IMG/VR virus record: IMGVR_UViG_3300007734_000675
Location: 1-39,771 of that record
Length of the DNA: 39,771 nucleotides
DNA from: a virus
Strand: one strand, 5' to 3'
The notes under the pieces were generated by a model. That model did not search any database and was not told the DNA's origin. It saw only the letters and a program-made list of their open reading frames with translations. Within the stretch, counting starts at the first letter, position 1; every line of letters starts with the position of its first letter. Of this stretch, positions 4,800-39,267 are shown one piece after another. The position numbers and the translations under genes are program-made.

Positions 4800-4803
<4 letters not shown>
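4462..4803 (+). CDS. Beta-rich tail-fibre-associated protein
   Basis: This 113-residue, all-beta-looking protein has the pattern [12 protein letters not shown], then [20 protein letters not shown] and a closing strand with RFLEGLFIV. That layout (unit describing an applied field, then [10 protein letters not shown]) resembles the small immunoglobulin- or BppU-like domains in phage baseplate and fibre operons. It overlaps its neighbours at both ends (GTGA and ATGA), so it is probably made in fixed ratio with the collagen-like fibre that follows. The role as fibre base or adaptor is inferred. Confidence 0.65.
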
Positions 4804-6317
<1,514 letters not shown>

Positions 6318-15350: not shown

Positions 15351-15602
15351 CTATACTGGTCTATCTACTGGACACGGTATGGTTACTATATTGCCACAAC
15401 TAGAACAGGTTGCATCAAGAAAATACCAGACTATCTCATAATCTTCAAAGCTCACTAGAGCGTTAAAGACCTGGCACCCACAGGAACATACGTGGAGGGG
15501 TCCTAAACCCCGCAAATCGGCTCCAAAAGGCTCAGGAAGGGCATCTGGTGGCGCCTTACGACGCTTAAATTTAGGCATAACAAAGGGGTGACGTCTTACC
15601 AT
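15351..15602 (-). CDS. Zinc-ribbon protein, unknown function
   Basis: The product is 83 residues on the minus strand. After a basic N-terminus (PKFKRRKAPP), two Cys clusters, VCSCGC and CSSCGN, are separated by about 20 residues and followed by VTIPCPVD. This is a classic four-Cys zinc ribbon. The first ATG (15602) has AGGAAGGAG upstream on the minus strand; an in-frame ATG at 15578 lacks one. It is the only leftward gene between the late and early rightward blocks and is divergent from the peptidase gene at 15765. A regulatory role is possible but unproven. Confidence 0.7.
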   Translation of the reverse strand: MVRRHPFVMPKFKRRKAPPDALPEPFGADLRGLGPLHVCSCGCQVFNALVSFEDYEIVWYFLDATCSSCGNIVTIPCPVDRPV

Positions 15603-15640: not shown

Positions 15641-15733
15641 TCGCCTTACGGCTCGTCCCCGTAAGGGGACCGGTCCGTTTTAATTCGCCTTACGGCTCAT
15701 ATTGTAGAAGCCTAGTAAGTGTCGCTACGCGAC
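15641..15733. repeat. Structured divergent intergenic region with 14-base direct repeats
   Basis: TCGCCTTACGGCTC occurs exactly at 15641-15654 and 15685-15698, 44 bases apart. Between them GTCCCC-GTAA-GGGGAC (15655-15670) forms a perfect hairpin, and GTCGC-TAC-GCGAC (15721-15733) forms another. The region separates two divergent genes. It could hold operator sites for a phage regulator. Confidence 0.7.
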
Positions 15734-15748
15734 GACACGCCGTAGTGA

Positions 15749-15764
15749 TGCTAAGATAAATTTT
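15749..15764 (+). promoter_or_regulatory. Extended -10 promoter, probably giving a leaderless transcript
   Basis: TG-C-TAAGAT (15749-15757) matches an extended -10 (TGNTANNNT). A start seven to eight bases downstream would coincide with the ATG at 15765. No ribosome site precedes that ATG, so leaderless translation, common in actinobacteria, is inferred. No convincing -35 is seen. Confidence 0.45.
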
Positions 15765-16322
15765 ATGACCACAATATCTGCGATACAAGGAATTGATTAT
15801 GCTGTACTAGTAGCTGACTCACAGATTACTGAAGATAATCTTGTGACCTTGGCGACTAGTACTCCTAAGATCGTTGAGGTTGGCAAGTTCTTACTTGCCA
15901 TCTCAGGGGACACACGCCCAGGAGATATTCTTTCCTATAACTGGAAGCCTCCGGCCTATCGTGGTGAAGATCCAGTACAATTTATGGGCAAGAAGGTGAT
16001 ACCTAGTATCATCGCAGCTTTTACAGACAACAACTACGAATGGAATAAGGTGGACAAGGATGATGGTTTCGATTATCTCGTTAGTTTTAATGGTAATATC
16101 TTTAGGGTTGCTTGTGACCTCTCTTTTTTCCAAAGTTCTCACGATATTTATGGCATCGGTAGTGGTGGTCAGTTTGCTCTTGGCTATCTGTATTCAATCC
16201 GCAAGCCTGATATGGAATTAGATTATGCTAAACGACACGCCCGTAAAGCCGTTGATGTAGCCTCGGTTCTTGACACCAATACTGGCAAGCCTTTACAATT
16301 GGTAGTCCAAGAACGACTATAG
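15765..16322 (+). CDS. HslV/proteasome-beta-like threonine peptidase
   Basis: This 185-residue protein has the Ntn-hydrolase layout of HslV. MTTISAIQG would expose Thr1 after Met removal. ADSQIT places Asp at position 17, K35 in STPKIVEV fits the catalytic Lys, LLAISGDTRPGD matches the glycine strand, and YGIGSGGQFALGY matches the HslV IGSGG segment. A helix with AVDVASVLDTNTG follows. All catalytic residues appear present, so active proteolysis is likely. No HslU-type ATPase is encoded. It may self-assemble, pair with a host unfoldase, or act on phage or host proteins. It is the first gene of the rightward early block. Confidence 0.78.
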   Translation: MTTISAIQGIDYAVLVADSQITEDNLVTLATSTPKIVEVGKFLLAISGDTRPGDILSYNWKPPAYRGEDPVQFMGKKVIPSIIAAFTDNNYEWNKVDKDDGFDYLVSFNGNIFRVACDLSFFQSSHDIYGIGSGGQFALGYLYSIRKPDMELDYAKRHARKAVDVASVLDTNTGKPLQLVVQERL

Positions 16323-16331
16323 GAGGAAGCA

Positions 16332-16520
16332 ATGAGTACACAAACAGAACGTTGGTTGAGAACAGAAGAGGCAGCAGATTACTTATCTGTAAGCATCGGA
16401 TTTTTATACAACCGTTCAATAGAAATTGGAATACCACGTGTAAAACTAGGTAACGGATATCGTTATCGCGCAACAGATCTTGATAAGTGGATGCTAGGTA
16501 ATTTAGATGACAGTAACTGA
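16332..16520 (+). CDS. Small excisionase/MerR-like HTH protein
   Basis: This 62-residue protein has the motif WLRTEEAADYLSVSIGFLYN, a winged-helix HTH as in HTH_17/excisionase proteins. The wing follows (RVKLGNGYRYRATDLDKWM). A strong AGGAGG (16322-16327) lies at ideal spacing. No integrase is present, so a role as a transcription regulator or DNA-bending factor is more likely than excision. It overlaps the nuclease gene that follows. Confidence 0.8.
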   Translation: MSTQTERWLRTEEAADYLSVSIGFLYNRSIEIGIPRVKLGNGYRYRATDLDKWMLGNLDDSN

Positions 16521-17454
16521 CCCAAAAGAACTATTACTAAGCGCACTTAAAGCAGTTGATGCTAAGCGCTCACGCTCCACACAGGTACAGATAGGTCCAT
16601 CAGAGGTAGGTGGTTGCCGACGTAAGGTTTGGTACCGACTCAATGACCAGCCAGAGACTAACGATAATGAGTTAAAGCTCGCTGCCATTATGGGTACTGC
16701 TATTCACGCAGAGATTGAAAGAGCACTATCAGATAACCCAGATGTATTGATTGAAACAGAAGTTGAATACAATGGAATGAAGGCGCATATTGATGCCTAT
16801 GTTCCTAGTAGTGGTGATGTAATTGACTGGAAAACTAGTAAGTTAAAGAACCTTGGTTACTTCCCATCAACGCAACAGCGTTGGCAGGTCCAGCTCTACG
16901 GTTATCTACTAGCAAAGAACGGTCACAAGGTAGAACGTGTATCACTCGTAGCCATTGCCAGAGATGGAGATGAGCGCGACGTTAAGGTACACACAGAACC
17001 TTACAATGAAGCGATAGCCTTAGAAGCATTAGCCTGGTTATCAGTTGTTAAAGAAGCAAAGGATGCACCAGATCCTGAGAAGGATGCAAACTACTGTCAG
17101 TTCTATTGCAAGTACTACGACTCATCAGGTGAGATGGGATGCGTTGGTCTAAAAAAAGAACGTACACCAGTCAGTGATGTAATCATTGATGATGTAGACG
17201 TTGACAAAAATGCTTTGTTGTATTTACAATTAGGAGTACAAATAAAAGCGTTAGAGAAAGCACAAGATTCTCTTAAAGCTAGCTTTGAGGGAGTACTAGG
17301 TACTACTAATAGCGGTATCGAAGTAAGTTGGACAACAATCGCTGGCAGGTCTACAGTGGACAGTGATGAAGTTGAGAAACTTCTTGGGTTTATTCCTAAG
17401 AAGATAGGCGAGACAAGCCAAAGATTATCTATCAAACAAAGTGGAGGAAAGTAA
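16507..17454 (+). CDS. Cas4/RecB-like PD-(D/E)XK exonuclease with Fe-S cysteines
   Basis: This 315-residue protein has the pattern GPSEVGGCRRKVWYRL (C37) and GTAIHAEIERAL (H67). D96 and DWKTSK (D107-W-K109) form the nuclease core, followed by RWQVQLYGYLLA, the QxxxY motif. Three late cysteines (C197, C201, C212) with C37 would hold a 4Fe-4S cluster, as in Cas4 and AddB. It probably resects DNA ends for recombination or replication. No CRISPR array or other cas gene is present. It is followed at once by a coupled small gene. Confidence 0.85.
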   Translation: MTVTDPKELLLSALKAVDAKRSRSTQVQIGPSEVGGCRRKVWYRLNDQPETNDNELKLAAIMGTAIHAEIERALSDNPDVLIETEVEYNGMKAHIDAYVPSSGDVIDWKTSKLKNLGYFPSTQQRWQVQLYGYLLAKNGHKVERVSLVAIARDGDERDVKVHTEPYNEAIALEALAWLSVVKEAKDAPDPEKDANYCQFYCKYYDSSGEMGCVGLKKERTPVSDVIIDDVDVDKNALLYLQLGVQIKALEKAQDSLKASFEGVLGTTNSGIEVSWTTIAGRSTVDSDEVEKLLGFIPKKIGETSQRLSIKQSGGK

Positions 17455-17850
17455 ATGGCTACAGAGGGAACAAAGTTCCAAGTCAATTACAAGTTAAATG
17501 ATGGAACACTCATCAACTTGTACGCAGCATCAGTTACAGAATTAGAGACAGGTCTTGCTGACCTTGCTATGAACGCAACAAACATTAAGGCTACTGGTAT
17601 TGACTTGAGCGTTGCTCACGTTGCCGGTGCGCCAGCACCAACAGTTGAAACAGTTGCTGCAGCATTTAATGCAACGCCAGTTGCAGCACCACAACCAGTG
17701 GCAGTTAATGCCAATGGATCAGTACATCAATGCCGTCACGGTGAGATGGCTTTCCGTTCAGGAACATCAGCTAAGGGACCTTGGAAGGGTTATATGTGTG
17801 CTGCACCCAAGGGTGCGCTAGATAAGTGCGACACTATCTGGATTAGATAG
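17455..17850 (+). CDS. Unknown protein with C-terminal Cys/His zinc-like module
   Basis: This 131-residue protein has a beta-rich N-terminus (KFQVNYKLNDGTLINLY). An Ala/Pro-rich linker leads to a C-terminal module CRHGEMAFRSG, then KGYMCAAPKG and DKC, likely binding zinc. It follows the nuclease without a gap and abuts whiB. A nucleic-acid-binding partner, for instance a single-strand binder, is possible, but no family was recognised. Confidence 0.7.
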   Translation: MATEGTKFQVNYKLNDGTLINLYAASVTELETGLADLAMNATNIKATGIDLSVAHVAGAPAPTVETVAAAFNATPVAAPQPVAVNANGSVHQCRHGEMAFRSGTSAKGPWKGYMCAAPKGALDKCDTIWIR

Positions 17851-18111
17851 ATGCGCGAGCCTGCAAGTTATGAGGCTCCTAGTTGTGCAAGCGTAGGTGG
17901 CGACTTCTGGTTTCCTGATGGAGAGAAGAACTCTATTACGCTAACCGATGCAGCATTTGCAAAGTCTATTTGCAGAATGTGTCCACATAAAACAGAGTGC
18001 GCTCAGTGGGGTATTGCCAACGAAACTCACGGTGTCTGGGGTGGATTATCTCCTAGAGATCGTAGTTCTATCCGTCGCCAAAAGAAACTGAAAGGGCAAA
18101 ACGTTGCTTGA
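17851..18111 (+). CDS. whiB: WhiB-family iron-sulfur regulator
   Basis: This 86-residue protein has C12, then C41-x2-C44-x5-C50, the four cluster ligands of Wbl proteins. The GVWGG turn (61-65) and a basic C-terminal tail (RRQKKLKG) for DNA contact follow. Wbl proteins bind the principal sigma factor and are essentially confined to actinobacteria and their phages, so this gene fixes the host phylum. It starts directly after the preceding stop. It may redirect host transcription or block a host Wbl protein. Confidence 0.93.
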   Translation: MREPASYEAPSCASVGGDFWFPDGEKNSITLTDAAFAKSICRMCPHKTECAQWGIANETHGVWGGLSPRDRSSIRRQKKLKGQNVA

Positions 18112-18952
18112 GTTATCTCGTGCCTGGGGTGGTGTGCTTACCAAAGCAACACCGCTACCTGATGTATGGGAAGGACTCAAAGCAAAGCAGATTAAGTTCA
18201 GACGTGGACAAGTGTGTATGGTAGCTGCGGCTCCTAATGCTGGTAAGTCTATGTTCGCTCTTATTTATGCTATCAAAGCAAAAGTACCAACGCTATTTTT
18301 TTCAGCAGATACTGATACAACTACAGTGATGATGCGTGGGGCATCTCACGTATCAGGTCATTCGCAGTTAAGTGTTGAAACTAATCTAGCAAGCAATACG
18401 CATTACTACGACCAATACTTTCAAAAGTTAAGTCACATCAAATGGGTCTTTGATTCATCTCCAAGTCTTGATGACATTGAGTTAGAAATCAGAGCTTATG
18501 TGGAACTCTACGGTCACGCTCCAGAGTTGATAGTCATTGATAACTTAATGAATGTTACTGCTGAGACAGATAACGAATGGGCAGGACTTCGTGCAATTAT
18601 GATGGAGTTCCACGATATGGCACGAAAGACCGAGGCTTGCGTACTAGTACTGCATCACGTCTCTGAGCAATCAGAGTATGGCAATCCTAGTAAGCCACCT
18701 CATCGCAGAGCTATTCACGGTAAGGTCAGTCAACTACCGGCGCTGATCTTAACACTTGGTTATGACCCAGTGCAGGCAACCTTGTTGGTTGCTGCAGTTA
18801 AGAATCGCTTTGGACCACACACTGCAGATGGCAGCAATTATGCAACCCTACTGGTAAACTATGCGGCGTGTCAGATAGGTGACCAAGATGCGTTTGGAAG
18901 AATGTTACGACAAGATGTAATGGCTGGATACGATGGAGGATACAATGTCTGA
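18104..18952 (+). CDS. RecA/DnaB-like ATPase (probable replicative helicase-type)
   Basis: The product is 282 residues from TTG 18104, with AAAGGG at 18090-18095 at suitable distance, overlapping whiB by eight bases. APNAGKS (43-49) is Walker A and ELIVIDNL (D146) Walker B. LVLHHVSE is a sensor-like strand and AAVKNRFG lies near the end. This is the RecA-type core found in DnaB/AAA_25 proteins. It lacks the N-terminal DnaB domain and is about 150 residues short of a full DnaB. It probably works with the split primase encoded downstream. Confidence 0.75.
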   Translation: MLELSRAWGGVLTKATPLPDVWEGLKAKQIKFRRGQVCMVAAAPNAGKSMFALIYAIKAKVPTLFFSADTDTTTVMMRGASHVSGHSQLSVETNLASNTHYYDQYFQKLSHIKWVFDSSPSLDDIELEIRAYVELYGHAPELIVIDNLMNVTAETDNEWAGLRAIMMEFHDMARKTEACVLVLHHVSEQSEYGNPSKPPHRRAIHGKVSQLPALILTLGYDPVQATLLVAAVKNRFGPHTADGSNYATLLVNYAACQIGDQDAFGRMLRQDVMAGYDGGYNV

Positions 18953-31928: not shown

Positions 31929-32299
31929 CGACTGCACCAATGAATCCGCTTGCCGGTCCTGCAGGCCCTGGCAAATTTGCCACACGCACAGATAACTTAC
32001 AAATGGGTTCTATCGCCTATGGCGAAGGTAAAGATACACAGGCTATTAAGTCTGGTGCTCCACTTGCAAAAACTGGCGACGTTAGCCCAGCACCATTAGT
32101 AGGTTTAGGTGCTCCAAGCCAGCGTCCAAATGAGGCTATTACTTCAGGTATTGATATGGGTGCAGGTCCAGGATCTAATGCTTTAATGATGCAAAAGTCA
32201 AACGTGAAGACTTCCGATACTTTAGCAAAACTATTACCCTTTGATACAGATGATTCCATTGCAATCTTGTACCAACAAGCATTAGCAAATGGTGATTAA
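31925..32299 (+). CDS. Small late protein (124 aa), unknown function
   Basis: The start at GTG 31925 is preceded by AGGAGGA, with GTGA overlap; a longer ORF start at 31880 lies in the previous gene. The product is Gly/Ala/Pro-rich N-terminally with a helical end (SDTLAKLLPFDTDDSIAILY). It is coupled by TAATG to the giant internal protein, so perhaps a chaperone or partner of it. Confidence 0.65.
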   Translation: MTTAPMNPLAGPAGPGKFATRTDNLQMGSIAYGEGKDTQAIKSGAPLAKTGDVSPAPLVGLGAPSQRPNEAITSGIDMGAGPGSNALMMQKSNVKTSDTLAKLLPFDTDDSIAILYQQALANGD

Positions 32300-35200
32300 T
32301 GGCTGATAATCTAAAAGCAGCATATTTAGCAGCAGGCTTAACGCCTAATGAACAAAAACAAATGGAGACTCTCCATAAGACTTTATCTGTTCATCGTGAA
32401 TTATCTAATCTTCCACAAAATGTAGCACAACAGGCTTATGCTTCTAAGACTCCAGAACAACAGGCAGCTCTAGTTAAACTTGCAGGACAACAAGATCCAG
32501 TAACTAAACCAGCTCGTGGATGGTTAGGCACTGCTTGGCACTATAGCATTGGTGGATTATTTAGTCTTGCTCAAGAAGGCTCTGATTTAGCCACACGTTT
32601 ATATCGTACTGGTGCTATCGCTGTAACTGAAAACAAACCTGTCTTTGGTTTTGGAAATGCTTGGGATGTTGCCAACGATAAAGGCGATAAAGTATTTAAC
32701 CAAAATCGCATTACAACTGCAAAGCGACAATACGGTGATGCTCGCATCAATGTAGCAATACGCGTTGCATCTGGTGAAAAACTCAGCGCTATTGCAACTA
32801 GTGGTACTGAAGAAGAAAAAGCAATTGCAGCAGCAGCAGCGCAAAAAACTGATGGATTATTTAATGACGCATTAGATACAGTCAATGCCGCTAAGTATTC
32901 TCCTGGTCGCCAGTTTGCAAATGTGATTGATGCCATCACTCCTGGTGATTTAATTAAGAATGGCTTTATGTACAAGGCTATATCTGGCGCAGTAGATGCA
33001 GCCTATAGAGTCTATGCAGATCCCTTACTTGCAGCAGGCAAAGCAAAAAAATTAGTTGATATATCTCGTTACTCACTAGATGTTGTAGTCGGTGGAGGTA
33101 AAGTTGAAGAAGTATTTGCTCGTGCAAATGTAACAAACTTTTGGGATGTCTACGGTCAGCAACTTACCAAATATCGTGAAGCAGTAAAATCAGGCAATAA
33201 AGCAGAGGCAGTTGCAGCTAGAAAGCAATTAGAGATTACAGCACCTGAATTTGGTACTGCAGTTATCAAGTCTTTTGTTAATATTGACACACCTATTAAA
33301 GATGCTAATACTGCTAAGGCTTTCTTCTTAAATGCAAAGCAAGTAGAAGAGATGATGAAGGGCCAGATTGGTCGCAAGCGTGTGATGATTCCACGTCTTG
33401 GTGCCTCTCGCCAGATTCGTATTAAAGCAGCAACGAGTGCTAATAAAGTTTTTAATATAGATTTTATGGGTTCTAAGTTTGTAGATGATAAGTACTTTGG
33501 TGGCGCAGCAACTGATGACGGCATATCAGATATTATGATTAACAACCGCTCTGCAATAGTTGATGCTATTAAGCCAAACTATGATGCTAAAGGTATGGCT
33601 CGTTTCTCTATGGCACAGATTCAGTATCGCATTGACCGTATGAAGGCTAAGTTTGAGCGAGTACCAATCTTTGACAATGAATCACTAGATGTAACCGCTG
33701 GAGATTCTGCACAAAAGGTTTACCTTTATGCTCGTATGATATTGCCACGCAATGATGCTAAACTATTAGCACAGACATTTGATGATGCAGAAGTTGGTCT
33801 TAAAAAAGAAATCTTCTACGGTCTTCAATCTACTATTGCAGATATTCGTGGCATCAATGTTACTAAAGAGGGACAACCTATTGGTCGTGCCTTAGCTGGT
33901 AAAGCTAAAGCACAGTTTGCCCTAACTGTTGATGGATATAATCCAGCAGCATTACCTAATGGTGAACAAATTGGTCTTATTCTTTCTGATATGTCAGATT
34001 TTGTAACAACATTAAGCATTAAAGATATTGACCGTCTATCAGCACGTAGTGGTCTTATTGGAAGTATCTTAGGCATTGCCCACTCAGGTTGGGTAGATAA
34101 GATGACAAGTGGCTGGTCATTCTTAACTCTTGCCGGTCCTCGTTACGCTGTTCGTAATGCAGCAGAAGATTTAATGGTCCACCTTGCAATCGGTGAATCT
34201 CCTTGGGGTCTTGTTAAGGCTCGTGGTTTATCAACACGTATTCGCACAGCAAAGGGCCTAGAAGCAGGTTTAACTAAATCTGAGAAGATAGCACAAGATC
34301 CACTAGGTGGAGTTTTACGTTTTATTAACAAGAAAGAAGCCAAATCATATGGCGCCGAAGTTGCCAAAGCAGACGGTGACTTAAAAGCAATACGTGAGAT
34401 TACAGCACGTGCTCTTAATGAAGGCAAGATGGCTCGTTTCTACGAGAAGACTGGTCTTGGAAAGTTTGGTAAAGCAGAACGCGAAGCATTGGCTGAACAG
34501 ATTAGATACGGCGATTTAGATAACGCTTTGATGGATATTGTTGAAGGTGGTAAGAACTCCTTTACTGGTATTGATGCCTACACTCGTACACTTAATTTTA
34601 CTCGCAAGTATAATGTTCGCACAGCAGCCCTTGGTTATGACCTACCAAAGGGATACAGCCGCGCTAAAGGTGCTAAGGGATTAAAGCCACAAGCACCATT
34701 ATCCGATGAAGCATCAAAGATTGCTTGGGCTATGCGTATTGGATATTACTCCAATGATAGACTAGGAGCAATTGCAGTTGCTAATCTTTCTGATACCGTA
34801 AAAGGTGAAGAACTAGCAGTTGCTAAAATTCGTAATTGGCTAAATGACCCAAAGAATGAAAAACTTGTTAGTTCTTTTCGTATGGAAGAAAATGGAATTA
34901 CCATAGATGACCACGCACAACGCATCTATGATGCAGCAAAACAACTCTTTGTAAAGCAAGATGGCAAGGCTCTTAACTTAGACTTACTTAGTAAAGTACG
35001 AGAGTTTGACCTTACAACTGGACAGTACAAGATTACTGGTAAAATTTCACTAGATGACTTGCCAACTAATGCAGCAGATGCACCGCAATATATTCTTGGT
35101 CCACAGTTAGTAGCTGTAACTGATACTGGTAACTACACCACTTCCATTATGGAGTGGGGCTGGGATTGGCTAGGAAATGCCAATGCTCGTTTCTCACGTG

Positions 35201-36981
35201 AGCCTATGGCTTTACAAGAGATGATTAAGATTCGCAAAGAGTTTAAGAAGACTGGATTTGAAGAGGCATTTATTGCATCTCATATCAAAGGCATTACTGC
35301 TCCTAAAGCAATTGAACGAGCAACACTTAACGCAAGACACAAGTTAGCAGAGATTGTTGAAGAACGAGCTGCTGCACAAACACTTGCCTATGTTGATAAT
35401 CCTTTGATTCAAAGTCAACTTGCCTTTACTGGTCGCAACTTTGCACGTTTCTATCGTGCCACTGAAGACTTCTATCGTCGTATGGCTCGTATGGTTAGAT
35501 ATAACCCAGAGTCTATCGCACGTGCATCACTAACCTATGAAGGAATTACTCACTCAGGTTGGGTACAACACGACGATCAGGGTGAACCATACTTCATTTA
35601 TCCTGGAACACAGTATGTTTATCGTGCAGTTCAGACTGCAATGCAAGCATTAGGTGTACCAGCAGAGTTCAAAGTTCCATTTCCAGTACAATTTGGTGCA
35701 AACCTTAAAATGATTACACCATCTTTGAACCTAGACTCTGCAATTCCTACACTTGCTGGTCCATTATCTGGACTATCTATCAAGTTAGCGTCAAATCTTG
35801 TAAGCATATTCAATCCAGGTGCAGCAGATACTATCGTAGGTGCAACTCTTGGTAAATATGCAATAGGCCAATCTACGGTTTCAGCGTTTTTACCAGCACA
35901 CGTTAACCGCATTTATGCAGCAATGAACACTGACGAACGTGATGGGCAATATGCCTCAGCTATGCGTAAGTCTATAACTTATCTTGAAGCAACTGGACAC
36001 GGATTAGAACAAAAGTTTGCAGCAGATGGAACTCCAATCCCATTTAGCGCCAAAGAACTTGAAGACTATCGTGTTAAGTTGAAGAATACTACACTTAGTA
36101 TCCTTGGTCTTCGTGTTGTTTATGGTTTTGTAGCACCTGCCTCACCTCAAGTTGAGTTAAAGTCTGAAATGGCTAGTTGGGTGCGTGGCAATAGTGAAGC
36201 ATCGTTCAAGCAAGTCTGGTATGGAATACTAGACAAAACAGGTGATTATGACAAGGCAATGACTGAATGGGTCAAGCGTTATCCAGACCAAATTCCATTT
36301 ACAATTTCAGAGTCAGAGCGTTCAACTGTTGCCTACTTTAGATATGCCACAGAATCTGGTCAGTTTGTAGACCAGAACCAGCAACTGTTTAAGGATTACA
36401 AGCAAGGTGCAACTTTCTTGATTCCTCACAAGGCTGGTTACTCTTGGGATGCCTATAAGTCTATGACTGATATGGGTCTTCGCAGCAATAAGACAGTGAC
36501 TGACTTTCTACGTGAGGCACAAACTGCTGCAGATATGCAGACTTACTACGATAAGAAAAGTGATTATGAATTAAACCTTGAATCTGTTGGTACAGATTTT
36601 GAGCGTTCACAACTGCGTCAAGAATGGTCTAGTTGGTCAACGATATTCAAATCAGGTCGTCCATTAGTTCAAGAAGAACTAGCACAAGGTGGCAAGAAAG
36701 CCATTGAGCGTATCAATGCCTACAATGATCTTAAAGCAATGCTTGATTCTAAGGCAGCAAATAAAGCCTCACCTGAGACTGCACAGAAACTGCGCCAGAT
36801 GACTGACCTTTATGAAACATATAAGAAAACAAAAGCAGAGTATGACTCATTTGGTGGTCGTCAGTTCTTATCACAGATGAATAAGGATGAAACTATTATT
36901 AAAATGCGTGAACTTTCAAAATTCAACGAAAACACTTTAAGTGCATATAACGTGCTCTTTGGTAGATTGCTAGGAGACTAA
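32299..36981 (+). CDS. Giant internal virion/DNA-ejection protein (1560 aa)
   Basis: This is the longest gene in the window. It is mostly helical and Ala/Lys-rich. A region near residue 600-635 (SFLTLAGPRYAVRNAAEDLM) is of a type seen in very large phage virion proteins, and several polar helical blocks follow. No transmembrane run typical of tape measures and no lysozyme or transglycosylase motif was found. Size, location after the portal and absence of tail-tube genes suggest an ejection protein like T7 gp16 or N4 virion proteins. An enzymatic domain cannot be excluded. Confidence 0.65.
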   Translation: MADNLKAAYLAAGLTPNEQKQMETLHKTLSVHRELSNLPQNVAQQAYASKTPEQQAALVKLAGQQDPVTKPARGWLGTAWHYSIGGLFSLAQEGSDLATRLYRTGAIAVTENKPVFGFGNAWDVANDKGDKVFNQNRITTAKRQYGDARINVAIRVASGEKLSAIATSGTEEEKAIAAAAAQKTDGLFNDALDTVNAAKYSPGRQFANVIDAITPGDLIKNGFMYKAISGAVDAAYRVYADPLLAAGKAKKLVDISRYSLDVVVGGGKVEEVFARANVTNFWDVYGQQLTKYREAVKSGNKAEAVAARKQLEITAPEFGTAVIKSFVNIDTPIKDANTAKAFFLNAKQVEEMMKGQIGRKRVMIPRLGASRQIRIKAATSANKVFNIDFMGSKFVDDKYFGGAATDDGISDIMINNRSAIVDAIKPNYDAKGMARFSMAQIQYRIDRMKAKFERVPIFDNESLDVTAGDSAQKVYLYARMILPRNDAKLLAQTFDDAEVGLKKEIFYGLQSTIADIRGINVTKEGQPIGRALAGKAKAQFALTVDGYNPAALPNGEQIGLILSDMSDFVTTLSIKDIDRLSARSGLIGSILGIAHSGWVDKMTSGWSFLTLAGPRYAVRNAAEDLMVHLAIGESPWGLVKARGLSTRIRTAKGLEAGLTKSEKIAQDPLGGVLRFINKKEAKSYGAEVAKADGDLKAIREITARALNEGKMARFYEKTGLGKFGKAEREALAEQIRYGDLDNALMDIVEGGKNSFTGIDAYTRTLNFTRKYNVRTAALGYDLPKGYSRAKGAKGLKPQAPLSDEASKIAWAMRIGYYSNDRLGAIAVANLSDTVKGEELAVAKIRNWLNDPKNEKLVSSFRMEENGITIDDHAQRIYDAAKQLFVKQDGKALNLDLLSKVREFDLTTGQYKITGKISLDDLPTNAADAPQYILGPQLVAVTDTGNYTTSIMEWGWDWLGNANARFSREPMALQEMIKIRKEFKKTGFEEAFIASHIKGITAPKAIERATLNARHKLAEIVEERAAAQTLAYVDNPLIQSQLAFTGRNFARFYRATEDFYRRMARMVRYNPESIARASLTYEGITHSGWVQHDDQGEPYFIYPGTQYVYRAVQTAMQALGVPAEFKVPFPVQFGANLKMITPSLNLDSAIPTLAGPLSGLSIKLASNLVSIFNPGAADTIVGATLGKYAIGQSTVSAFLPAHVNRIYAAMNTDERDGQYASAMRKSITYLEATGHGLEQKFAADGTPIPFSAKELEDYRVKLKNTTLSILGLRVVYGFVAPASPQVELKSEMASWVRGNSEASFKQVWYGILDKTGDYDKAMTEWVKRYPDQIPFTISESERSTVAYFRYATESGQFVDQNQQLFKDYKQGATFLIPHKAGYSWDAYKSMTDMGLRSNKTVTDFLREAQTAADMQTYYDKKSDYELNLESVGTDFERSQLRQEWSSWSTIFKSGRPLVQEELAQGGKKAIERINAYNDLKAMLDSKAANKASPETAQKLRQMTDLYETYKKTKAEYDSFGGRQFLSQMNKDETIIKMRELSKFNENTLSAYNVLFGRLLGD

Positions 36982-36982
36982 C

Positions 36983-37633
36983 GTGGGACGTAACTTACCA
37001 AAGACAATCGTTAAGACTCCAGTTTCAACTGGTACTGGTGCTACAGGACCTGCAGGTGCTCCGTCTGACTACACACAATTTTTAACTACTATTGCTAAAA
37101 ATCCAGCATTTATTACTGGATACTCAAAACTGTTAAAAACTGCTGGATACTACAAGGGTGCAATTACTAATAAGTACACTCCTGCGCTACAGGCAGCCTT
37201 TGATAAGGCAGAACAAGCACGTCTATCAATCTTTGCTGTTAATCCAATGGATCGTGATACTTTCTTAGCACAACCAGCTACTACTAGTACTGGTACTGGT
37301 ACTGGTCAACCTAACACGGTTAAAAGTGTAACTGTCTTTACTCCAGAGACAGCAAAGACTCTTATTGAAACAGTTATTCGAGATAGTCTAGGACGTAATG
37401 CCACTGCTGCTGAAATTAAGAAATACACAGCAACCTTAAAAGGTATACAAGATAAGGCTACATCAATTACACAGTATTCTACTTCCGGTGGCGTTCAGAC
37501 TTCAAAGACAACACCTGGAATTAACGAACAACAGTATCTAATAGATCAAGTTGCTGGAACCGATGAAGGCAAAGCCAATAAAGTACTTGGTTTCTATGAA
37601 ACATTTATGAACGCGTTAGGCGGTAACCGCTAA
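36983..37633 (+). CDS. Late virion-associated protein (216 aa)
   Basis: The product is 216 residues from GTG 36983. It has a short collagen-like GATGPAGAP near residue 19 and a helix YSKLLKTAGYYKGAITNKYT reminiscent of peptidoglycan-binding-like repeats (x-G-Y-Y-x-G). The C-terminus carries a helical VIRDSLGRNATAAEI segment. Coupled by TAATG to the next gene. Possibly an internal core or ejection component. Confidence 0.6.
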   Translation: MGRNLPKTIVKTPVSTGTGATGPAGAPSDYTQFLTTIAKNPAFITGYSKLLKTAGYYKGAITNKYTPALQAAFDKAEQARLSIFAVNPMDRDTFLAQPATTSTGTGTGQPNTVKSVTVFTPETAKTLIETVIRDSLGRNATAAEIKKYTATLKGIQDKATSITQYSTSGGVQTSKTTPGINEQQYLIDQVAGTDEGKANKVLGFYETFMNALGGNR

Positions 37634-39267
37634 TGGCTAGAAATTCAGTTCAACAACAAGAACAAGCAATTGCAGATTTGAAAAAAACTGTTCGTGAATT
37701 AAAAATTCAATCTCAAAGTACAATGCACTCTGCTGCTGAACATAAGAAATACCTTGACCAATATACTCTTTATAGTAAGAAATTATCTTCTGCTGAATCA
37801 GATTTAATTAAATTTAAGGCTGGACTTGCAATTGAATTAAGAGATTCTAAAAAAGCAGCAGGTCTTGCTAATGTTAAAAAAATTGAAGATAAGTACAAAG
37901 AACTTAATAGGCAATTGGCTTATCAGATTGACCCTAATAGTAAAGAAGCAAAAGATATTCAAGCAAAATTAAAAGCATTACCAGAAGAATATCGAGTTGC
38001 TCTTTCTGATTCAAAAGGTACACCATTTTCTCTTGCTTACGCAAGAACTGTTTTAACAAAAGTACCTTTGCCAACTCTTGGTGGCGCATCAGGTCCATCC
38101 GGTGCATCCGGTCCAACAGGTACTCCTACTGCCACTGGCCCTACTGGTCCTAAAGTTGGCGCCTCTGGTGCTAGCGGTCCTTCTGGTCCTACTGGTCCTA
38201 CAATTGGCGCCTCTGGCGCCTCCGGTGTTAGCGGTGCAGGCGCCTCTGGTGCTAGTGGTGCTAGTGGTGCTAGTGGTGCTAGTGGTGCTGTAAATCCACC
38301 TTCAGATCTTAAAACTCTTTTACAAAAGACAGAGTTCTGGTATGACCTACCTGATTACATATTTAATACCGTACCAGGTTTGGGTGATATTCTTGTTAAA
38401 GCGGTTGCTGAAGGTTGGGATGACAAAAAGTTTCTTGCTGCAGCACAAGGTACTACTTGGTGGCAAAAAAATTCATCTAATATACGTACTCGTATTATTG
38501 ATAAAGCCAAATATGATGAACTTAAAGCCGCTGGTGAAGATGTATCTAAGACAGATTATGGTTTATATTTAACAAAGCAGATTAACACAGTTAAGGCTAA
38601 GGCCCAAGAAATTGCTGGCGTTACACTTACTGATGAGCAAGCACAAAATGTTGCTAGCAAAATCTATAATGGTTTCTTAGATGATGACCCAACAGCACTT
38701 ACCTCTCTTATAGCTCCATTTATTGGTAAAGTTACCAGTATCGCTGGTACTGGAACAGGTGCTCAAAGCATTGGTGGCTTTAGCGGTCAAGCATTACAGA
38801 ACTATCAGACACTTCAAGCCATTGCCAAAGCAAATGGATTTACCATTAAAGACATTCTGCCCAATATATCTACTACTGCCACAGGTGGTGACCTAGAAAC
38901 TGCAGTATTGCAGCAATTGGCAGCAGGAAAGATAGATATTAACCGTGTAGCACAAGATGCTCGTACTCTTGCAGCACAAGGTCAGCCACAATATGTACGA
39001 GGATTACTTAATCAGGGTTATGACCTTGAGAATATCTACTCTCCTTACAAAAATCAGATGGCAGCAGTACTAGAAATTGACCCAAATACTATTAACCTCA
39101 ATGATCCAACACTTCGTGGTGCTATTACAGATAAGGGTGATATGAACTTGTTTGATTTCAAACGCTCTTTGAAACAAGATAGCCGTTGGCAATATACCTC
39201 ATCTGCTAGAGATGAAGTATCTACTGCGGCATTAGGAGTCTTAAAAGACTTCGGATTCCAGGGGTAG
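37633..39267 (+). CDS. Collagen-like virion protein (544 aa)
   Basis: Residues about 10-145 form a long Lys/Gln/Glu-rich coiled-coil-like region. Residues 150-219 are GASGPTG/GASGAS repeats, followed by an alpha-rich domain of about 320 residues (TTWWQKNSSNIRTRI, DEQAQNVASKIYNGF, FDFKRSLKQDSRWQYT). The architecture of helical head, collagen-like linker and helical tail is shared with the gene that spans the contig ends. The two are probably partners or distant paralogs in the ejection apparatus. Confidence 0.7.
   Translation: MARNSVQQQEQAIADLKKTVRELKIQSQSTMHSAAEHKKYLDQYTLYSKKLSSAESDLIKFKAGLAIELRDSKKAAGLANVKKIEDKYKELNRQLAYQIDPNSKEAKDIQAKLKALPEEYRVALSDSKGTPFSLAYARTVLTKVPLPTLGGASGPSGASGPTGTPTATGPTGPKVGASGASGPSGPTGPTIGASGASGVSGAGASGASGASGASGASGAVNPPSDLKTLLQKTEFWYDLPDYIFNTVPGLGDILVKAVAEGWDDKKFLAAAQGTTWWQKNSSNIRTRIIDKAKYDELKAAGEDVSKTDYGLYLTKQINTVKAKAQEIAGVTLTDEQAQNVASKIYNGFLDDDPTALTSLIAPFIGKVTSIAGTGTGAQSIGGFSGQALQNYQTLQAIAKANGFTIKDILPNISTTATGGDLETAVLQQLAAGKIDINRVAQDARTLAAQGQPQYVRGLLNQGYDLENIYSPYKNQMAAVLEIDPNTINLNDPTLRGAITDKGDMNLFDFKRSLKQDSRWQYTSSARDEVSTAALGVLKDFGFQG
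38248..38289 (+). repeat. Tandem 9-base units encoding Gly-Ala-Ser
   Basis: GGTGCTAGT is repeated four full times plus a partial copy, at the end of the collagen-like linker. Exact DNA identity suggests recent slippage. Confidence 0.9.

Follow-up and report, generated by a model that had tools for sequence, protein, structure and literature searches.

The stretch of DNA analysed here (hereafter the window) comprises 39,771 nucleotides, positions 1 to 39,771 of the IMG/VR virus record IMGVR_UViG_3300007734_000675. Its ORF list includes an ORF of 185 aa that starts with ATG and whose product, beginning with MTTISAIQ, resembles proteasome subunits. This gene (Table 1) is the first one on the plus strand past a divergent intergenic region and is followed by genes encoding an HTH protein, a PD-(D/E)XK exonuclease, WhiB, a DnaB-like helicase, a primase and a sigma factor.

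Table 1. Features of the peptidase locus, in window coordinates
Feature	Position	Strand	Support
Divergent 83-aa Cys-rich (zinc-ribbon-like) ORF, common intergenic region	15351..15602	-	beside the peptidase gene in 9/9 loci
TACAAT, putative -10 box of the divergent gene	15701..15706	-	conservation of the region across 20 aligned loci
Small inverted repeat overlapping the CGACACGCCG box	15720..15734	+	6 predicted pairs
CGACACGCCG upstream box	15733..15742	+	invariant in 20/20 aligned loci; sole exact copy in the window
TAAGAT, TANNNT -10-like box, 7 bases before ATG	15752..15757	+	conservation
Proteasome-like threonine peptidase gene	15765..16322	+	PF00227, PHROG 1040, predicted fold, invariant catalytic residues
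Co-directional downstream block: HTH, PD-(D/E)XK exonuclease, 131-aa ORF, WhiB, DnaB-like helicase	16332..18952	+	order conserved

All nine window-like loci checked share one gene order, interrupted in some by small insertions. On the left, these loci carry tail-side genes, endolysin/holin-like ORFs where detected, and the divergent Cys-rich ORF adjoining the peptidase gene; on the right come the exonuclease, the 131-aa ORF, WhiB, DnaB, the primase and the sigma factor. The peptidase gene heads the replication block, as the initial annotation had proposed in describing it as leading the early block, and it is this gene order that suggests early expression. The divergent Cys-rich ORF, which displays 59-90% identity across the nine loci, has no PHROG or PADLOC match, and the PADLOC search gave no matches. 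The position of the gene also bears on the initial suggestion that the enzyme might mature phage proteins. Among the structural proteins scanned, none was recognised as a dedicated head maturation protease, which would leave room for a capsid protease processing virion proteins. However, the peptidase gene lies in the replication block, away from the portal, scaffold and major head genes, and many short-tailed phages require no head protease, which is dispensable for them. A role in virion maturation is therefore disfavoured and seems very improbable.

The intergenic region is highly conserved between window positions 15696 and 15764, which include the CGACACGCCG box, the inverted repeat and TANNNT boxes in both orientations. 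In most window-like loci, the TANNNT box preceding the peptidase gene has its end 6 or 7 bases from the start codon, and its T, A and T positions do not vary among the 20 aligned loci, which are related and not independent. Two of the six predicted pairs of the inverted repeat display pair-keeping changes on both sides, a weak signal given that the sequences are related. The CGACACGCCG box is a possible operator or promoter element, and the whole region might correspond to a divergent leaderless promoter with its operator. Indeed, a leaderless actinobacterial promoter and early expression would both fit the upstream pattern. As a standard scan for sigma-70 promoters yielded no hit above the chance level, the case for a leaderless promoter is one from conservation.

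The assignment to the proteasome families, made at first from the letters of the sequence, is borne out by HMM searches. The product matches the Pfam Proteasome family (PF00227; 44.6 bits versus a cut-off of 22.4, E 1.7e-11) and PHROG 1040, 'peptidase HslV family' (92.7 bits, E 5.9e-26). These scores place the family match far beyond chance, and membership of PHROG 1040 means that the phage family was already catalogued; the PHROG label records resemblance, not an assayed function. The cut-offs of the more specific NCBIfam equivalog models are far out of reach, both for HslV (20.1 versus 157.75 bits and 20.3 versus 137 bits) and for the archaeal 20S beta subunit (31.8 versus 224 bits). Therefore, the peptidase is neither a typical HslV nor a typical 20S beta subunit, and both identities were dropped. 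A profile built from 43 relatives matched BPH (1.5e-9) and HslV (4.5e-9) in the PDB over nearly the full length. The initial term 'HslV-like' is thus only loosely right and does not extend to HslV in the strict sense, and the best solved relative is BPH. The window protein shares with HslV (ClpQ) the fold, the catalytic residues and the GSGG segment; it differs from it by its low equivalog score, by a longer H2-S7 loop and by the fact that no HslU was found. As judged from sequence and model, it is a single-subunit, propeptide-less member of the proteasome-like (group I, HslV/BPH-type) Ntn-hydrolase family.

In the proteasome numbering that applies after loss of the initial Met, Thr1 corresponds to T2, Asp17 to D18 and Gly47 to G48, and the GSGG segment lies at 132-135. 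The Lys33 equivalent, K35, is shifted one position later than in this numbering. All 176 aligned relatives (142 distinct proteins, the named phage ones going down to about 20% identity) have identical residues at T2, D18, K35, G132 and G134 (GxG), and 168 of the 176 keep the oxyanion Gly47 (G48). The Thr/Asp/Lys triad recognised initially is therefore invariant, and none of these aligned relatives lacks it. A D-x-x-T-G stretch at 170-174 corresponds to Asp166/Ser169/Gly170 of proteasomes. In addition, the window-like genes display a median dN/dS of 0.089 over 279 pairs, which indicates strong purifying selection. The exact conservation of the catalytic residues and this selection together argue for a working Ntn hydrolase, whatever its cleavage target may be. 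The alignment of the very diverse phage members included no stretch conserved enough to scan with.

The gene is widespread in viral contigs: a scan of IMG/VR gave at least 599 matching stretches, at least 592 of them encoding relatives, and querying with a Planktophila phage protein gave 199 more-distant relatives in a second scan. A single genome scan gave only four relatives, all distant proteobacterial MAG proteins. The nearest named relatives (30-33% identity) are found in the Planktophila phages LanE43-AprE7/F5 (OX376640, OX376641; hereafter E7 and F5) and in Actinomycetia phage DSL-LC01 (OQ999401), and remoter ones in phages of Tunturiibacter, Pseudoalteromonas, Psychrobacter, Vibrio, Moorella, Xanthomonas and Aeromonas. 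E7 and F5 were cultured on a 'Ca. Nanopelagicales' isolate, and WhiB, sigma factor and glycosyltransferase traits were reported for both (PMC10202952). The window phage encodes a WhiB, a sigma factor and a glycosyltransferase, and it has DnaB, primase, sigma and other proteins in common with F5 (31-57%). These common traits and proteins make an actinobacterial, probably Nanopelagicales, host likely.

In the tree, whose branches are long and some of whose joins may, according to the tool's warning, be spurious, one actinophage clade (support 90/89) unites the window-like, DSL-like and Planktophila-like proteins. The Planktophila type differs from the window type by a shorter helix H4 and a different local gene order, and the DSL type by a basic C-terminal tail and by its position adjoining WhiB; in DSL-like phages (L083:8001-8954, L095, L096), the WhiB gene adjoins the peptidase gene or is near it. 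A neighbouring clade includes MTC/MTV proteins with a TSSFRMGQ motif from plasmids of Rhizobium, Sinorhizobium, Mesorhizobium, Paraburkholderia, Bacillus and Streptomyces, and also takes in proteins of Vibrio, Aeromonas and other phages. Its members (L182, L183, L185-L189, L087-L094) have a Ser at the oxyanion Gly47 position (TSSFRMGQ); their mature residue 2 is in most cases Cys or Val, and they retain Thr1/Asp17/Lys33. The members of PHROG 1040 are, like the window protein, stand-alone phage proteins with Thr1/Asp17/Lys33; however, most of the named-phage members examined start with MTC and have a Ser where the window protein has Gly47. In Aeromonas phage 2L372X (L092), two adjacent genes are both labelled 'peptidase HslV family', and some phages may therefore use two different peptidase subunits.

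Two other phage-borne group I proteasome homologs, PPH and AAH, were described in 2021 (Fuchs, Alva, Lupas, PMC8665760), and the window protein resembles both in being phage-borne and in having no AAA+ partner. PPH was rejected as its counterpart, being about 140 aa long and devoid of H2, whereas the window protein has 185 aa and an H2 at 70-88 in the model. The Rhizobium and Streptomyces plasmid homologs of the neighbouring clade are possibly AAH, and the taxonomic spread of that clade resembles that of AAH as described (PMC8665760), a likeness by description that serves as a lead only. The 2021 survey found no Actinobacteria-specific phage carrying AAH (PMC8665760). If the window lineage is AAH, it may fill this gap by supplying the Actinobacteria-specific phage carriers missing in Fuchs et al. 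2021 (PMC8665760).

The AlphaFold2 model of the monomer, obtained from the 43 relatives (pLDDT 85.8, pTM 0.84), predicts strands and four helices in the Ntn order. Both the model and its PDB matches display the Ntn sandwich with two helix pairs, so that the fold proposed initially is recovered as that of proteasome Ntn hydrolases. VIA-align gave Z 19-20 to both 20S beta and BPH (tied within 1; rmsd 2.6-3.4 over about 170 residues), most rows beginning with model residue 2 against chain residue 1, and the Foldseek top match was BPH (5ovs, E 7e-12). BPH is thus the best match by Foldseek as well as by sequence profile.

The resemblance to 20S beta could be taken to favour a hybrid subunit able to insert into the host 20S proteasome or to poison it, as the initial annotation had envisaged, all the more so as 20S proteasomes are frequent in Actinobacteria. 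However, the 20S beta equivalog score is far below its cut-off, and phages of Vibrio, Aeromonas and Xanthomonas, hosts in which no 20S proteasome is known, also encode homologs. Hybrid particles are disfavoured and appear highly unlikely.

BPH (PDB 5OVS, 5OVT, 5OVU; PMC5777263) and the window protein are alike in lacking a propeptide and a known ATPase partner and in carrying a long acidic pore loop. Indeed, the H2-S7 loop of the window protein, which has about 13-16 residues, is net acidic and is poorly ordered in the AlphaFold2 model, resembles that of BPH more than the short HslV linker (PMC5777263). However, the two proteins share about 19-27% identity over structural alignments, the BPH loop is more acidic and the BPH gene is bacterial, not phage. 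In the tree, which includes a single BPH sequence and has long branches, the phage branch (91/91) is separate from BPH, which stands beside HslV and proteins of bacterial MAGs.

BPH was inert in vitro on standard peptides and casein (PMC5777263), and connectase is a monomeric ligase in the proteasome-like family (PMC8665760), an example from which it follows that 'proteasome-like' implies neither self-assembly nor proteolysis. Together with a variation of H4 length inside the clade, these precedents would fit a highly specific Ntn hydrolase instead of a general protease, i.e. a ligase or a single-substrate processor, maybe monomeric. Such an enzyme is nevertheless quite unlikely here, as all four helices are kept and the S3-S4 insertion of connectase is absent. 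Connectase itself was rejected as a counterpart: it carries a two-helix S3-S4 insertion and has no H1/H2, whereas the model has no helix between S3 and S4 and has helices at 51-59 and 70-88 (H2). As to H4, it has 11 residues in the Planktophila type versus 18 in the window type; the shortening, by about 7 residues, is seen in locus L098:4146-4679 and Planktophila-type relatives, at the position of the ring-ring contact of proteasomes. In proteasomes, H3 and H4 form the ring-ring contacts, so that assembly may differ inside the clade.

No AAA+ unfoldase was found in the window, in agreement with the initial observation that no HslU or proteasomal ATPase is encoded. The window record has no AAA_2 (PF07724) or AAA (PF00004) match, and AAA_2 (HslU/ClpX-type) gave none in 16 phage records (the window and 15 related ones, which may be incomplete but include the complete E7, F5 and DSL-LC01 genomes). 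Matches to PF00004 were obtained only in E7/F5 and DSL-LC01. That of E7/F5 was rejected as an unfoldase, since its coordinates coincide with the DnaB-like helicase, and those of DSL-LC01 were not traced to an unfoldase. BPH has no known ATPase partner and works, if at all, without HslU (PMC5777263), and no co-occurring AAA+ was reported for the new proteasome homologs of Fuchs et al. 2021 (PMC8665760); members of the wider family usually lack an ATPase.

As HslV and the 20S proteasome use AAA+ partners and the phage encodes none, the phage barrel might be fed by an unfoldase of the host, e.g. ClpX, ClpC or the Pup-system ATPase, the Pup locus having been reported in all Actinobacteria, some of which have lost the 20S subunits (PMC8223512). 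However, no docking feature was identified in the peptidase, the 20S alpha subunits on which Mpa docks are absent here, and the score stays below the HslU-specific family cut-off. An Arg cluster near the pore was not seen in the alignment with Thermotoga maritima HslV, in which the loop is hard to align. Feeding by a host unfoldase is thus considered unlikely.

A mode of action like that of BPH, an ATPase-free proteasome homolog, is more plausible for the window protein than one like that of HslV. On balance, and judging from sequence, model and analogy, we lean towards an early, self-assembling, ATP-independent threonine peptidase that would act on particular host or phage proteins. The peptidase would be made early in infection, the methionine aminopeptidase of the host would expose Thr1, and the subunits would form a two-ring barrel like that of HslV or like the heptameric double ring of BPH. 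During takeover, this barrel would then cleave host or phage proteins that are unfolded or specifically presented to it, with no need for a dedicated ATPase and perhaps with the help of host chaperones. Degradation of host or defence factors is conceivable. The inertness of BPH in vitro is the main caution about this peptidase mechanism. A bolder proposal, which we make tentatively and would not expect to hold in full, is that of a distinct viral proteasome subfamily not represented in the published group I clusters. It would be a core early gene in phages of abundant freshwater actinobacteria, and its stand-alone, ATP-independent barrel would remove particular host proteins at the start of infection.

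Phage proteasome homologs devoid of an ATPase were already known. The present analysis adds a large actinophage lineage whose catalytic residues are invariant, whose locus is conserved and which has cultured relatives. This little-studied lineage is carried by an abundant group of freshwater viruses whose hosts are probably actinobacteria. No functional study was found in the literature on phage HslV or phage proteasomes, and no phage proteasome-like protein has a demonstrated function. As the gene is conserved, constrained and syntenic, and as homologs exist in two cultured Planktophila phages with an isolated host, the ATPase-less role of a viral proteasome becomes testable.

Elsewhere in the window, a 1560-aa protein encoded after the portal gene (32299-36981, plus strand) has no PHROG match at E 0.001. 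Long collagen-like G-x-y repeats occur at 4800-6317 and 37633-39267 (plus strand), and the second of these ORFs matches tail fibre PHROGs.
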